NCBI GenBank assembly: GCA_016192995.1
Contig: JACPTB010000008.1
Location: 1-50,769, forward strand
DNA from: Candidatus Woesearchaeota archaeon
GTDB lineage: Archaea > Nanobdellota > Nanobdellia > Woesearchaeales > DSVV01
Direction: 5' to 3'
DNA: 50,769 nt
Made by a program: the position numbers and the translations under genes. A model generated the notes under the pieces. The model saw only the letters and a list, made by a program, of their open reading frames with translations. It did not search any database and had not been told where the DNA came from. Every line of letters starts with the position of its first letter. Position 1 is the first letter of the stretch. Below are positions 230 through 46,830 of this stretch, piece after piece.

Positions 230-385
230 GTACGTAATAAGTCTTCTTTAGGTTTTAGCGCCGGTTCAGCTTTTGATGTGATTATTGATTGGATTTTTCT
301 CTCTGGAACTCCGAAAAATCCCCAATATAAATTTAAGAAGAGCTTCACGAAAGTAGGCGCTAAAACCCCCAGACTTATTACGTAC
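230..385 (+). mobile_element. Family A nested-hairpin element, copy 1
   Basis: A 156-bp element with no coding capacity. The outer arms GTACGTAATAAGTC and GACTTATTACGTAC are exact reverse complements. The middle arms GGTTTTAGCGCC/GGCGCTAAAACC also pair. The apical stem GGATTTTTC (291-299)/GAAAAATCC (313-321) closes a 13-nt loop, TCTCTGGAACTCC. It is flanked on both sides by the 8-bp direct repeat GATATTTA (222-229 and 386-393), which looks like a target-site duplication. It lies just after the stop codon at 222. Confidence 0.85.
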
Positions 386-10298: not shown

Positions 10299-10724
10299 AT
10301 GTATCCTGGAAAAGATCATATTGGTGTTGGTTGCGGCGCTGTTATTCTTAATGAAAAGAATGAAGTTCTTTTAATGAAGCGAGGCAAAGCATGCAGAAGT
10401 AAAGTTGGGTGGTGGAGTATTCCAGGTGGAGCCGTTGAATTCTTTGAAAAGATTGAAGATGCACTGAAGCGAGAAGTTAAAGAAGAAGTAGGCTTGGATA
10501 TTGAAATTATTAAAACACTTTGTTTAACTGAATATTTCAATAAAGAAGAGGGTCAGCATTGGGTTTCTCCCCAATACCTCTGCAAAATAATGAGTGGAAC
10601 TATTGAAAATAAAGAACCTGAAAAATGTGAAGAGATCGCATGGTTCAACCTTGACAAACTTCCTGAGAAATTAGTGTTTCCTGCAGTGAATGCATTAGAT
10701 GCATTAAAAAACAATAGTACGTAA
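10299..10724 (+). CDS. Nudix hydrolase
   Basis: 141 residues. The full Nudix box is present: GG-AVEFFE ... LKREVKEEVGLDI, matching GX5EX7REUXEEXGU at about residues 45-67. These enzymes hydrolyse nucleoside diphosphates linked to another group, often for sanitation of modified nucleotides; the substrate is not predictable. The family A element copy 2 starts at 10717, inside the coding frame, and provides the present stop codon (TAA at 10722-10724). Without the element the frame would run on for about seven other codons into downstream DNA. The C-terminal change is minor and outside the catalytic fold. Confidence 0.9.
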   Translation: MYPGKDHIGVGCGAVILNEKNEVLLMKRGKACRSKVGWWSIPGGAVEFFEKIEDALKREVKEEVGLDIEIIKTLCLTEYFNKEEGQHWVSPQYLCKIMSGTIENKEPEKCEEIAWFNLDKLPEKLVFPAVNALDALKNNST

Positions 10725-10871
10725 TAAGTCCTCCTTAGGTTTTAGCGCCGGTTCAGCTTTTGAAGTGTTCTTCAATTGGATTTTTCTCTCTGGAACTCCG
10801 AAAAATCCTCAATGCGCTAAATCTTAGAGCTTCACAAAAGTAGGCGCTAAAACCCCAGACTTATTACGTAC
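10717..10871 (+). mobile_element. Family A nested-hairpin element, copy 2
   Basis: 155 bp, with outer arms GTACGTAATAAGTC/GACTTATTACGTAC, middle arms GGTTTTAGCGCC/GGCGCTAAAACC, and the apical stem GGATTTTTC/GAAAAATCC around TCTCTGGAACTCC. It is flanked by AAACAATA (10709-10716) and TAACAATA (10872-10879), a 7-of-8 match. The sequence between the right apical stem and the middle arm has diverged from copy 1. It sits at the very end of the Nudix gene. Confidence 0.85.
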
Positions 10872-13103: not shown

Positions 13104-13605
13104 AATCGTTCTTTTATCACTAACTCTGTTAGTGAGCTGCGGTGATAATTCTGAAGATAAAGCGCCTGTTAAAGATCTTAAACCAGAGCCTCAACAAGTA
13201 TTTATTCCTTATCTTTCTGATATTTTTAATCAAAATATTCAAGTAAAATGCTTATTTGCTGATAAGAAAAATAATGAAGGAGTTGTTTATGCTAAAAACA
13301 GGAATTACCATATTGAAGTAATTGATCCAGAAATTGGAAAAATTATTACTCTTGTAACTGGAGGAAGGATTTATTCTATGCCCTTAAGCGGCACTTCAGG
13401 AACAACTTTAAACTTAACAGCGTTGGATTTATCAGGAAACAATACCATTCCCCTGGCATTGAATGCTGCACGGCATGTTTGCTTTAATGTTTCAGTTTCA
13501 GATGAATTATTCAAGATTCCATCTGATGTTGCATTTGTTGATGTGACCGACAAATATCTGGGCAAGACCAAGAATAGCATAAAAAATGGCAACACTACAA
13601 CCTAA
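13072..13605 (+). CDS. Lipoprotein, paralogue 1
   Basis: 177 residues with a lipoprotein signal peptide: NYRLLIVLLSLTLLVSCG, lipobox LVSC at about residues 20-23. The mature part is a beta-rich domain of about 130 residues with the motifs VKCLFADKKNNEGVVYA, YHIEVIDPEIGKIITLV, IYSMPLSGTSGT and SDELFKIPSDV. The same pattern appears in the next gene, so the two are a tandem duplication. It may be a LolA-like or small extracytoplasmic binding protein; function unknown. The first residues come from a perfect palindrome, so the native start may have been altered. Confidence 0.7.
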   Translation: MHNVLFNYRLLIVLLSLTLLVSCGDNSEDKAPVKDLKPEPQQVFIPYLSDIFNQNIQVKCLFADKKNNEGVVYAKNRNYHIEVIDPEIGKIITLVTGGRIYSMPLSGTSGTTLNLTALDLSGNNTIPLALNAARHVCFNVSVSDELFKIPSDVAFVDVTDKYLGKTKNSIKNGNTTT

Positions 13606-14248
13606 AGAGAACTTTGCAAAATACTCGCAAAGCTCGGGTTACTGCCAGTTCGCATTGAGATCTCTGTTTAACAAAGCAATTTTCTCTCTGGAACCTCGAA
13701 AATTGCCCGATAAGTCTTTCGAAAATGCTCACGAAATTGGCAGTAACCATAATTTTGCAAAGTTCTCTAAAACAAGATCATTTTATACACCATTATTCAT
13801 TTCAATCTTGCTTGTCTTAATTATTTTTCTTGCAGGCTGCAAGTCTCAAGAACACAAAGAAATACCATTGTCTTCATTGCAGGACCTCTTTAAAAAATCA
13901 TTAAAATCTGAATGTACCTATACTGATCCTGACGGCAATAAAGGAAAAGTTTTCTCTGATGGTTTCCACTACAGAATTGAAACTAATAATCCTAACCTTG
14001 GAATGTTGGTGACAATCTATCATGATAGTGCTTTGTATTCTTTCAGTCCTGATCAAAAAATAGGAACAGTTCTCAATCTCTCTTTACTTCCTTCGCTGGA
14101 TGCTTCAGAATCTCTGTCTTATTTTAATATTAAAAATACCGATTTCAAATGTGTTACAGCATCGTTATCCGATGAATTATTTCTCGTTCCTCAAGATATA
14201 GTTGTCAAAGATGTAACAGGGGAATTTAAAGGATATGTCGATGACTAA
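13586..14248 (+). CDS. Lipoprotein, paralogue 2, with element-derived N-terminus
   Basis: The frame opens at ATG 13586, overlapping the end of the previous gene, and reads straight through the family B element (13606-13768). The first ~60 residues are therefore element translation (for example NFAKYSQSSGYCQFA). A true signal segment follows, FYTPLFISILLVLIIFLAGC, with lipobox LAGC. The mature domain mirrors paralogue 1: SECTYTDPDGNKGKVFS, YRIETNNPNLGMLVTIY, SDELFLVPQDI. No ATG, GTG or TTG lies between the element and the signal segment, so insertion seems to have removed the native start. Either the long fusion is made, or the gene is broken. Confidence 0.55.
   Translation: MATLQPKENFAKYSQSSGYCQFALRSLFNKAIFSLEPRKLPDKSFENAHEIGSNHNFAKFSKTRSFYTPLFISILLVLIIFLAGCKSQEHKEIPLSSLQDLFKKSLKSECTYTDPDGNKGKVFSDGFHYRIETNNPNLGMLVTIYHDSALYSFSPDQKIGTVLNLSLLPSLDASESLSYFNIKNTDFKCVTASLSDELFLVPQDIVVKDVTGEFKGYVDD
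13606..13768 (+). repeat. Family B nested-hairpin element, copy 1
   Basis: 163 bp. The outer arms AGAGAACTTTGCAAAAT and ATTTTGCAAAGTTCTCT are a perfect 17-bp inverted repeat. The middle arms GGTTACTGCCA/TGGCAGTAACC pair perfectly. The apical stem GCAATTTTC (13676-13684)/GAAAATTGC (13698-13706) encloses TCTCTGGAACCTC. No convincing 8-bp flanking duplication is seen. It starts directly after the stop of lipoprotein 1. Confidence 0.85.
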
Positions 14249-19450: not shown

Positions 19451-19602
19451 GTACCTATTAAGTCTGGGGTTTTAGCGCCTACCTTTGTGAAGCTCTTCTT
19501 AATTTCACTTCGGGGATTTTTCGGAGTGCCAGAGAGAAAAATCCCCGAAGTACTCTTCAAAAGCTGAACCGGCGCTAAAACCATGGAAGACTTAATAGGT
19601 AC
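19451..19602 (-). mobile_element. Family A nested-hairpin element, copy 3 (inverted)
   Basis: 152 bp, opposite orientation to the other A copies. Its outer arms are GTACCTATTAAGTC and GACTTAATAGGTAC: both positions that differ from the other copies have changed on both arms, so pairing is kept. The apical stem is extended (GGGGATTTTTC/GAAAAATCCCC) and the loop is TCTCTGGCACTCC. Flanks TATAATTA (19443-19450) and TACAATCA (19603-19610) match at 6 of 8 positions. Confidence 0.8.
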
Positions 19603-24065: not shown

Positions 24066-24206
24066 GGCTCTGTCCCGAATCTCGGCTTACGCCTCGGTTT
24101 TGGTGCCGTGATTATCCCACTTGTTGATAAGAAGGAAAAAATTCCCATTGGAATTCCCTTTTTTCTCGATTATTTATTCTTAAGATAATCACAAGCATGG
24201 CACCAA
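24066..24206 (+). mobile_element. Family C element, right end missing
   Basis: It begins GGCTCTGTCCCGAAT like the 59-bp copy at 11440 and contains the complete C middle and core found at 14253 (GGTTTTGGTGCCGTGATTAT, AAGGAAAAAATT, CCCATTG). The expected closing arm ATTCGGGACAGAGCC stops after ATTC, where family D sequence takes over. No matching 8-bp flank is seen, as expected when one end is lost. Confidence 0.75.
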
Positions 24207-24357
24207 TTCAGCAACCACCATCAGCTCGGCTTAAGATGCAGTTATCGATTGTGCTATCCTCTCTGGAACCTCGGATAGCACTCGATGAAAGATAAGAAGA
24301 GCCTCGCAAAAAAGATGGTGGCACTTTTCGCAATATCACTTACAAATTGGATTGTGC
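24207..24357 (+). mobile_element. Family D element, left end missing
   Basis: Nearly identical to the reverse complement of the complete D copy at 45671-45860, with C/T changes near the junction, but lacking the outer left arm and left inner arm. It retains CCACCATC/GATGGTGG, the apical GTGCTATCC/GGATAGCAC stem around TCTCTGGAACCTC, and the right end GGATTGTGC. It is joined directly to the truncated family C element, so the pair forms a C-D chimera upstream of the gene at 24418. Confidence 0.8.
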
Positions 24358-24417
24358 GAGTGATGGTAATATTTATATACTACTTTCCTGTAAAAAGGTG
24401 CTTAAAGAGGTGTTGGT

Positions 24418-28768: not shown

Positions 28769-28931
28769 AGAGAACTTTGCAAAATACTCGCAAAGCTCGG
28801 GTTACTGCCAGTTCGCATGGAGATATATCTTTAACAAAGCAATTTTCTCTCTGGAACCTCGAAAATTGCTTGATATACATTTCGAAAATGCTCACAAAAT
28901 CGGCAGTAACCATAATTTTGCAAAGTTCTCC
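28769..28931 (-). repeat. Family B nested-hairpin element, copy 2
   Basis: 163 bp with AGAGAACTTTGCAAAAT at one end and ATTTTGCAAAGTTCTCC at the other, middle arms GGTTACTGCC/GGCAGTAACC, and apical stem GCAATTTTC/GAAAATTGC around TCTCTGGAACCTC. The sequence is written in the same orientation as copy 1, but it is assigned to the minus strand because it abuts the stop codon of the minus-strand gene that ends at 28932. No flanking duplication is seen. Confidence 0.8.
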
Positions 28932-44648: not shown

Positions 44649-44649
44649 A

Positions 44650-44811
44650 GAGAACTTTGCAAAATTATGGTTACTGCCAAAATGGTGAGCATTTTCGAAA
44701 TACTTATTGAGCAATTTTCAGAGTTCCAGAGAGAAAATTGCTTTGTTAAATGGAAATCTCAATGCGAACTGGCAGTAACCCGAGCTATGCGAGTATTTTG
44801 CAAAGTTCTCT
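44650..44811 (-). repeat. Family B nested-hairpin element, copy 3 (inverted)
   Basis: 162 bp, opposite orientation to copies 1 and 2. Outer arms AGAGAACTTTGCAAAAT and ATTTTGCAAAGTTCTCT complete; middle arms GGTTACTGCCA/TGGCAGTAACC; apical GCAATTTTC/GAAAATTGC around TCTCTGGAACTCT. The frame that is open in copies 1 and 2 has a TGA here, so the element is not maintained as a protein. No clear flanking duplication. It starts 2 bp after the stop at 44648. Confidence 0.8.
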
Positions 44812-45182: not shown

Positions 45183-45626
45183 CTATTTTAATCTTTTGAT
45201 TATTTGCGCTGGAACTCCTGCAACAATCACCTTATTGGGAACATCTTTAGTGACAACTGCGCCAGCGCCAATAATAGAGTTCTCTCCAATAGTTACTGGC
45301 ATAATCGTTGCATTACTCCCTATAGAAACACCTTTTTTAATAAGTGTTGGTTTCCAATTATCCTTTCCTCCAGGAGGTTTAATATCGTTAATAAACATCA
45401 CACCATGTCCAACAAAAACATTGTCTTCAATAGTGACTAACGAACAGATAAAAGTATGTGATTGAATTCTGCAATTATTGCCAATCTTGACTTCTGGTTG
45501 TATCTCAACAAAACTACCGACCATAGAATTATTACCTATTTCACAGCCATAAAGATTAACATAATGCCATATTTTAGTATCTTTACCTATCTTGCAATCT
45601 TTAATCAATTGGTATTGCCCTGGCAT
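45183..45626 (-). CDS. Hexapeptide-repeat acyltransferase (WxcM/WlbB-like)
   Basis: 147 residues of left-handed beta-helix repeats: ([LIV]-G-x4) units such as CEIGNNSMVGSFVEI, VKIGNNCRIQS and VTIEDNVFVGHG, a loop with FINDIKPPGGKDNWKPT, then VSIGSNATIMPVTIGENSIIGAGAVVTKDVP. It resembles sugar N-acetyltransferases of the WbpD/WlbB/WxcM group that acetylate amino-sugar nucleotides for surface glycans; a role in glycan synthesis is inferred. ATG 45626 (MPGQYQLIKDCKIG) is preferred; the frame upstream reads into a family D element. Confidence 0.85.
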   Translation of the reverse strand: MPGQYQLIKDCKIGKDTKIWHYVNLYGCEIGNNSMVGSFVEIQPEVKIGNNCRIQSHTFICSLVTIEDNVFVGHGVMFINDIKPPGGKDNWKPTLIKKGVSIGSNATIMPVTIGENSIIGAGAVVTKDVPNKVIVAGVPAQIIKRLK

Positions 45627-45670
45627 CTTAGGAATAATTAGGTAGTTATTTAAAAGGTTTACGTAAATCT

Positions 45671-45860
45671 GGCACAATCCAATTTGTAAGTGATATTGCG
45701 AAAAGTGCCACCATCTTTTTTGCGAGGCTCTTCTTATCTTTCATCGAGTGCTATCCGAGGTTCCAGAGAGGATAGCACAATCGATAACTGCATCTTAAGC
45801 CGAGCCGATGGTGGCTGCCGAAAGCATTTTCGCAATATCACTCGTTTTTTGGATTGTGCC
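45671..45860 (-). mobile_element. Complete family D nested-hairpin element
   Basis: 190 bp. The outer arms GGCACAATCC (45671-45680)/GGATTGTGCC (45851-45860) and inner arms AGTGATATTGCGAAAA (45689-45704)/TTTTCGCAATATCACT (45827-45842) are perfect inverted repeats. GCCACCATC/GATGGTGGC forms a further stem. The apical stem GTGCTATCC/GGATAGCAC (45748-45778) encloses TCTCTGGAACCTC on the minus strand. It is flanked by GTAAATCT at 45663-45670 and 45861-45868, a perfect 8-bp duplication. Confidence 0.9.
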
Positions 45861-45868
45861 GTAAATCT

Positions 45869-46023
45869 GTACGTAATAAGTCCCCTTTTGGTTTTAGCGC
45901 CGGTTCAACTTTTTAAGTGGATTTCGGTTGGATTTTTCTCTCTGGAACTCCGAAAAATCCTCACAGCAAATATAAGAAAAGCTTCACAAAAGTAGGTGCT
46001 AAAACTCCAGACTTATTACGTAC
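45869..46023 (+). mobile_element. Family A nested-hairpin element, copy 4
   Basis: 155 bp, arms as in copy 1 (GTACGTAATAAGTC/GACTTATTACGTAC) with apical GGATTTTTC/GAAAAATCC around TCTCTGGAACTCC. One middle-arm position has diverged (GGTGCTAAAAC). It is flanked by GTAAATCT at 45861-45868 and 46024-46031, a perfect 8-bp duplication whose left copy is also the right flank of the adjoining D element. It lies 6 bp after the stop of the minus-strand gene ending at 46030. Confidence 0.9.
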
Positions 46024-46029
46024 GTAAAT

Positions 46030-46830
46030 CTATACCTTTCTTCCGCATACTGCATTCATTGCAGCAATAAACTCCTTGGCATCAGTTATCATTTTATCTA
46101 ATTGCTCGCCTTTAATCTCTTTTAGTTCTCGGTGAAGTATTTTTTTAGAGATATCATAAAATTTTCTCAACATTTCAGGATATTTTTTATCCAATTTATT
46201 GGTTTTTACAAATCGTTCGTATAATTTATCAGCAGTTCCTTGCGGTGTTGCAGGAATTTCACCAGCATGCATTAATGCAGCATGAGCGCAATCCATTACT
46301 GCCCAATATAAATCCATAACGCCCTGCATCATTCTTGATCTGGCGCTGTAATATGCTGCCTTGCTTTTCCCAAAATAAGCATTGACTGATTCTGGTGTTG
46401 GTCGTATTCTTCCTTCAAATAATAATAATTGCAAGGGAAAGACAAAACCTGTGTCAATTAATCCAACGCCTGATCTGAGCATATTCATAATGATAGGATC
46501 ACCAATGCGGACATATTCCCAAAAACTGGTAAGCCTTAATGTAGTTATATGCAATCTATTTGAGGTTTCAATTGCGCATTTCTCAACAATAATGCGATAT
46601 GTTTCTATAATTTCAGGAGTTAAATAAAATGAAACATTATCAACAATGATAAGAATATCAATATCTCCTTTGGTGTTCATCTGAGATCCACCGCCAAAAA
46701 TCATAATTGCACGTATAAATCCACCAAACTCATTATACACTTTAGTGCTAAAACTACGGGCAACATCATAATCCTCAGTAGTATAATTTGCTTTATAAGG
46801 AGGTTCTTTACGTTTAATCTCAGACTTCAT
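46030..46830 (-). CDS. MNT-HEPN fusion protein
   Basis: 266 residues. The N-terminal half has the minimal nucleotidyltransferase motif MIFGGGSQMNTKGDIDILIIVD (GGGS ... DID). The C-terminal half, from SVNAYFGKSKAAYYSARSRMM to DAKEFIAAM, is helical and matches a HEPN-like domain with HAALMHAGEIPATPQGTADKL. MNT and HEPN are usually separate antitoxin and toxin proteins; here they are fused. The R-x4-H RNase motif of active HEPN toxins is not obvious, so it may not be a toxin. The stop codon lies within the GTAAATCT duplication next to the family A element. Confidence 0.75.
   Translation of the reverse strand: MKSEIKRKEPPYKANYTTEDYDVARSFSTKVYNEFGGFIRAIMIFGGGSQMNTKGDIDILIIVDNVSFYLTPEIIETYRIIVEKCAIETSNRLHITTLRLTSFWEYVRIGDPIIMNMLRSGVGLIDTGFVFPLQLLLFEGRIRPTPESVNAYFGKSKAAYYSARSRMMQGVMDLYWAVMDCAHAALMHAGEIPATPQGTADKLYERFVKTNKLDKKYPEMLRKFYDISKKILHRELKEIKGEQLDKMITDAKEFIAAMNAVCGRKV

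Follow-up and report, generated by a model that had tools for sequence, protein, structure and literature searches.

Probable successive insertion of unrelated MITEs into one 8-bp target upstream of an archaeal promoter, and a TATA-spaced insertion preference shared with IS5-family elements

The window, i.e., the whole analysed stretch of 50,769 nucleotides, is contig 8 out of 16 in the 1.62 Mb genome assembly of Candidatus Woesearchaeota archaeon. Two short elements, D and A, and three copies of the word GTAAATCT lie in it between an acetyltransferase gene and the gene upstream of it on the same strand:

45183–45626, minus strand: gene of a hexapeptide-repeat (LbH) acetyltransferase, downstream of the targeted promoter (PF00132 Hexapep, E 3.2e-25)
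45647–45654, minus strand: TATA box TTTAAATA of the acetyltransferase gene, exact match to TTTAWATA at offset 9
45663–45670, unstranded: target copy 1 (GTAAATCT), TATA-proximal, exact match
45671–45860, plus strand: element D, MITE of 190 bp with TIR GGCACAATCC...GGATTGTGCC, probably the second (younger) insertion
45861–45868, unstranded: target copy 2 (GTAAATCT), between D and A, exact match
45869–46023, plus strand: element A, MITE of 155 bp with TIR GTACGTAATAAGTC...GACTTATTACGTAC, probably the first insertion
46024–46031, unstranded: target copy 3 (GTAAATCT), TATA-distal, the last two bases lying within the stop codon of the upstream gene
46030–46830, minus strand: upstream gene ending at the distal target copy, with only a weak, below-cut-off, nucleotidyltransferase-like match

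The original prediction described the interval 45663–46031 as a stack of D and A with three target copies, and indeed all three copies are exact and coincide with the element edges. In the whole window, the word occurs at no unusual frequency (six matches vs. 2.85 expected), and its presence exactly at the element edges three times is far beyond chance. The edge of the target site duplication (TSD) lies 8 bp upstream of the TATA box, the modal spacing in these families being 6, and 37 nt from the acetyltransferase ATG at 45626, a start distance like that of other targets. Element D is 98% identical to C1:70034–70220, and A diverges by 9% from its family consensus; both fold on themselves (z −8.4 and −4.8, respectively), and neither contains a transposase ORF. 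Rfam yielded no match at the D/A locus; TIGR00024, an archaeal family, matched within the window, and this match, together with the TATA boxes and leaderless promoters, points to an archaeal host.

Both elements have the features of MITEs: they are short and non-coding, have TIRs of at least 14 bp (A) and at least 10 bp (D), and occur in multiple copies with target site duplications. Family A has 204 TIR matches genome-wide (about 100 copies), family D has about 20 copies, and the ends of both are corroborated by other genomic copies. Duplications of 8 bp are left by families A, D, B, and E alike; among paired copies with both ends, they are found with at most one mismatch in 40 out of 64 for A, nine out of 12 for D, and nine out of 27 for E (TIR GGCTCTGTCCCGAA), whose repeats are often degraded. 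The clean repeats differ from copy to copy, e.g., GATAGCCA, AAATTTGC, and CATAAATA, and thus GTAAATCT is a target and not a terminus; as the original prediction presupposed, it is not fixed in the termini of other A and D copies, which carry other 8-bp repeats. Further copies in the window are:

230–385, plus strand: A-family copy, TSD GATATTTA
10717–10871, plus strand: A-family copy, TSD AAACAATA/TAACAATA
19451–19602, minus strand: A-family copy, degraded TSD
24207–24358, minus strand: D-family fragment joined to B/E-type sequence (chimeric element 24066–24358)

In the chimeric element (24066–24360 of the window), an E-type end is joined to a B-type interior and to the greater part of a D element; at C4:91.5 kb and C14:3.1 kb, B-type ends enclose an A-like interior; and the internal hairpins of A, D, and a further family, C, contain the motif CTCTCTGGAAC despite different ends (in the window, at 299–311, 10786–10798, 13684–13696, 24259–24271, 28847–28859, 44721–44733, 45758–45770, and 45938–45950). 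Judging from the sequences, interiors and termini seem to have been exchanged between MITE families. In three places (C6:76679–77003, C6:155162 onward, and C2:16930–17154), E is situated at one identical internal point of A, which suggests that an A–E composite may have multiplied as a unit. A 48-bp miniature E-like element (GGCTCTGTTCAGAA...TTCGGAACAGAGCC) adjoins an A copy at C3:4776–4823.

Three-copy target stacks were found at eight loci in all, in five family pairings, the census covering stretches around the listed element copies; the seven besides the D/A locus likewise show two successive insertions into one 8-bp target, and so bear out what had been proposed for D and A. A pattern search for A and D joined by 8 bp yielded only two junctions, both without mismatch, namely, the D/A locus and C7:103539–103564, the latter in the stack C7:103348–103738 with repeats AACGGGTT, AATGGGTA, and AACGGGTA. 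Six further stacks, found from the neighbours of other copies, represent the pairings E/D, E/A, B/A, and B/D, with repeats CATAAATT/CATAAATA/CATAAATA; AATAAATA three times; GATAGCCA three times; TATTTAGT/ATTTGAT/TATTTGAT; AATCATAG/GATCATAG/GATCATAG; and TACAGAAC/TATAGAGC/TACAGAGC; in a few of them, one element end is irregular by 1 bp. A strict permutation test for a third copy recovers the two cleanest stacks only (four sides vs. 0.55 expected, maximum of three in 200 permutations), since it demands exact ends and repeats with at most one mismatch; the remaining stacks were read by eye and are weaker evidence. No clear third repeat is seen for the neighbouring elements at C3:4776, C5:213276, and C1:257882, which were therefore not counted as stacks.

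For TTTAWATA with at most one mismatch, 116 flanks of 58 clean elements were scanned. Matches peak at offset 7 (26 matches), with ten at offset 9, two at offset 6, and none at offset 8; many of those at offset 9 are the same TATA box as at offset 7, read two bases on. When flanks abutting another element are removed, a TATA box at offset 7 is present in 22 out of 89 flanks, vs. a background of 0.45 per offset. Counted per element, 33 out of 58 have a match at offsets 5–9, compared to two to five out of 58 for other offset ranges of the same span; about 43% of the clean elements have no match at these offsets with at most one mismatch, and hence the spacing rule is strong but not absolute. If flanks are oriented by the gene start alone, the base profile spells TTTAWATA at positions +7 to +14, with gap position 4 rich in A, and the start codon lies 36–39 nt from the repeat in 11 out of 16 TATA-bearing cases. 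On the sequence evidence, this geometry matches that of leaderless archaeal promoters, the duplication directly preceding the predicted BRE. The common target preference suggested by the original prediction does exist, but it concerns a position and not the word GTAAATCT: on one of its sides, the duplication preferentially ends at a near-fixed distance, mostly 6 bp and sometimes 8 bp, from an archaeal TATA box that lies downstream. The elements thus keep a fixed distance to a core promoter element, a TnGBS-like behaviour for which family C served as a negative control.

Family C is a MITE of about 157–165 bp, its copies mostly 92–99% identical, with ends GAGAACTTTGC and repeats of apparently 4 bp, e.g., TACA and TTCA; it is found in the window at 13605–13768, 28769–28930, and 44649–44811, and in about 30 more places in the genome. 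Among 30 fetched loci of this family, no TATA peak was seen at any offset, the difference in TATA association from the elements with 8-bp TSDs being significant (Fisher P 5e-6). Thus, the TATA peak is not a by-product of where the genome tolerates MITEs. Family C has probably been active recently, with a different mechanism.

The same spacing is found in autonomous elements. All five complete GG-ended IS5-family elements with 8-bp TSDs, which come from five other genomes of other genera of the phylum and were located blind to TATA, have a TATA box at offset 7; in relatives with 9–10-bp repeats, it is mostly within 2 bp of that offset. These five elements encode quite different transposases; NF033579 is the best match for each of them (2.3e-23 to 1.9e-40, though below the curated cut-off), PF01609 scores above cut-off in four out of five, and the autonomous relatives thereby carry IS5-family DDE transposases. 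TIRs in common with IS5-type autonomous elements are seen for E and B, autonomous elements with B-type ends being present in two other genomes. Contig ends interrupt the autonomous E-type element of the studied genome itself: the repeat ATTATTTC is found at both of its termini, one on C15 and one on C9, and is followed on the C9 side by GTAATC and then TTTATATA. Its transposase was matched to the IS5 family via a homologue in an order-level relative, where an IS remnant reads AATTAATA, CCAATA, TTTATAAA. The assembly breaks inside copies of an autonomous IS5-type element at the ends of contigs C2, C4, C7, C9, and C15 (element ends GGCGTTGTCCCGAA / GGCTCTGTCCCGAG).

Two IS5-like elements with TGCTGTGTTG ends (L187, L202) have 8–9-bp repeats and no TATA box at a fixed distance; elements of this type may be outside the spacing rule, and lend themselves to a comparison aimed at the targeting determinant. 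No autonomous partner with the TIR of A or D was found among the sequences searched, and therefore it is TSD length and TATA spacing that connect A and D with IS5 transposases. An IS6/IS26 (IS6/IS240) transposase had been suspected from the E termini (8-bp TSD, GGC.CTGT TIR), and PF13610 has no match in the genome; membership in the TnGBS/p-MULT family was rejected as well, as the transposases match IS5/DDE_Tnp_1 models and not the Mutator superfamily. The shared transposition machinery that had been suggested for D and A holds only loosely, given that the TIRs differ and the autonomous relatives have several different IS5-family transposases.

Taking all this into account, A and D are non-autonomous MITEs that were quite probably inserted successively at the same promoter-proximal position. 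The first element, A, would have duplicated the 8-mer upstream of the acetyltransferase promoter, displacing the TATA-distal repeat, so that only the TATA-side copy would keep the preferred distance to the TATA box; D would then have entered that TATA-side 8-mer, yielding the third copy. As the TATA-proximal repeat occupies the original target position, a further insertion would copy this very 8-mer once more, and as targeting acts at a near-fixed distance from the promoter, the same spot would be preferred again, and unrelated MITEs would be stacked back to back. By rough estimate, about 200 elements among about 1,000 promoters would give about 20 coincidences, and sites picked at random in 1.6 Mb about 0.01. 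Such a model predicts that the younger element should be the TATA-proximal one. In both A/D stacks, D is TATA-proximal, and it is 98–100% identical to sister copies, while A copies are more diverged, age being judged by identity to the nearest copy; family divergence failed as an age measure for D, which has two subfamilies. Moreover, in the three informative stacks, i.e., those with exactly one odd repeat, the odd one is the TATA-distal repeat in three out of three. These observations point to A as the first insertion and D as the second.

The one-sided fixed spacing would be most easily explained if the transposase docks on TBP/TFB bound to TATA and BRE, and insertion just outside their footprint would let the core promoter survive. 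That archaeal IS5-type transposases are recruited by promoter-bound TBP/TFB, as a DNA-transposon counterpart of Ty3, is a reading of the target geometry to which we give about as much credence as doubt. Target specificity set by DNA alone exists in other transposons, and here too the transposases might read a DNA motif by themselves (8 bp, about 6 bp, AT-rich TTTAWATA), stacking following from that and transcription factors playing no part. The motif is visible in the DNA and the TSDs are mildly AT-rich, as this would require; however, the motif is one-sided and outside the duplication, whereas a symmetric transpososome that reads the DNA directly would usually do so with symmetry around its cut sites; the motif is common to several quite different IS5-family transposases and TIRs, and the enrichment of A at gap position 4 is what a BRE-like contact would produce. 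We consider reading of the DNA alone possible but rather unlikely.

Insertion might also be random or intergenic, with purifying selection retaining the copies just upstream of promoters and the stacks being survivors. Judging from the geometry, insertion upstream of BRE/TATA spares the core promoter and should be tolerated, but selection would give a minimum distance and not a single-base peak flanked by two matches on one side and none on the other; family C, with a similar copy number among those scored in the same genome, has no such peak, and random insertion predicts about 0.01 exact re-uses genome-wide (an estimate) vs. the eight seen, which makes this explanation very improbable. That the triple repeat is a coincidence, or results from recombination joining alleles with independent A and D or from movement of D and A as a composite, is hardly credible: nested A–E composites that seemingly moved as units do occur in the genome, but a composite predicts a constant middle 8-mer with new outer repeats, whereas the three copies of the D/A locus agree and the C7 stack was formed on another 8-mer, and coincidence is excluded by eight stacks in five pairings. 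With successive insertion at a promoter-fixed position, what looked like a local peculiarity becomes a targeting rule that can be tested in a widespread group of archaeal transposons. Such a rule would explain how intergenic regions of small archaeal genomes fill with MITEs without killing genes, and in uncultivated archaea, promoters and leaderless starts could be recognized by the edges of the elements. If the transposases are recruited by TBP/TFB, promoters would serve permanently as docking sites, used again and again, where elements pile up with the core promoter left intact.

Archaeal MITEs are known as short, non-coding elements with TIRs and TSDs, mobilised in trans; the parts consulted of the Haloquadratum study (PMC3119063) and of a review of prokaryotic MITEs (PMC10969869) describe neither stacking in one target nor insertion at a fixed distance from TATA. 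For archaeal ISH6, a promoter preference through an AT-rich target has been mentioned as speculation only (PMC3942029). The IS5 family (NCBIfam NF033579; PF01609), with GG-starting TIRs and 8–9-bp TSDs, includes the transposases of those elements that share the TATA spacing. We found no report of fixed-distance promoter targeting for IS5-family or archaeal elements in the open-licence literature, and a subscription paper may exist.

Promoter-targeted transposition as such is already known in bacteria (TnGBS/ISLre2) and yeast (Ty3). Prokaryotic Mutator-like transposases of the TnGBS, ISLre2, and ISKra4 group insert their elements 15–17 bp upstream of the −35 box of sigma-A promoters, in both orientations when the TIRs are symmetric, and contact with the transcription initiation complex has been proposed (PMC3942029). 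Like A and D, these elements are inserted at a fixed distance upstream of promoters; the difference is that the promoters are bacterial sigma-A ones and the transposases belong to the Mutator superfamily, whereas here the promoters are archaeal, of the TATA/BRE type, and the elements are MITEs and IS5-family (DDE_Tnp_1) transposons. The retrotransposon Ty3 integrates precisely at Pol III genes, the position being set by TBP-containing TFIIIB upstream of the gene (PMC8632968). Our data suggest that in archaea, as in yeast, transposons may use the basal transcription machinery for docking, the archaeal ones being DNA transposons for which docking is inferred only, and Ty3 a eukaryotic element with a retroviral-type integrase.
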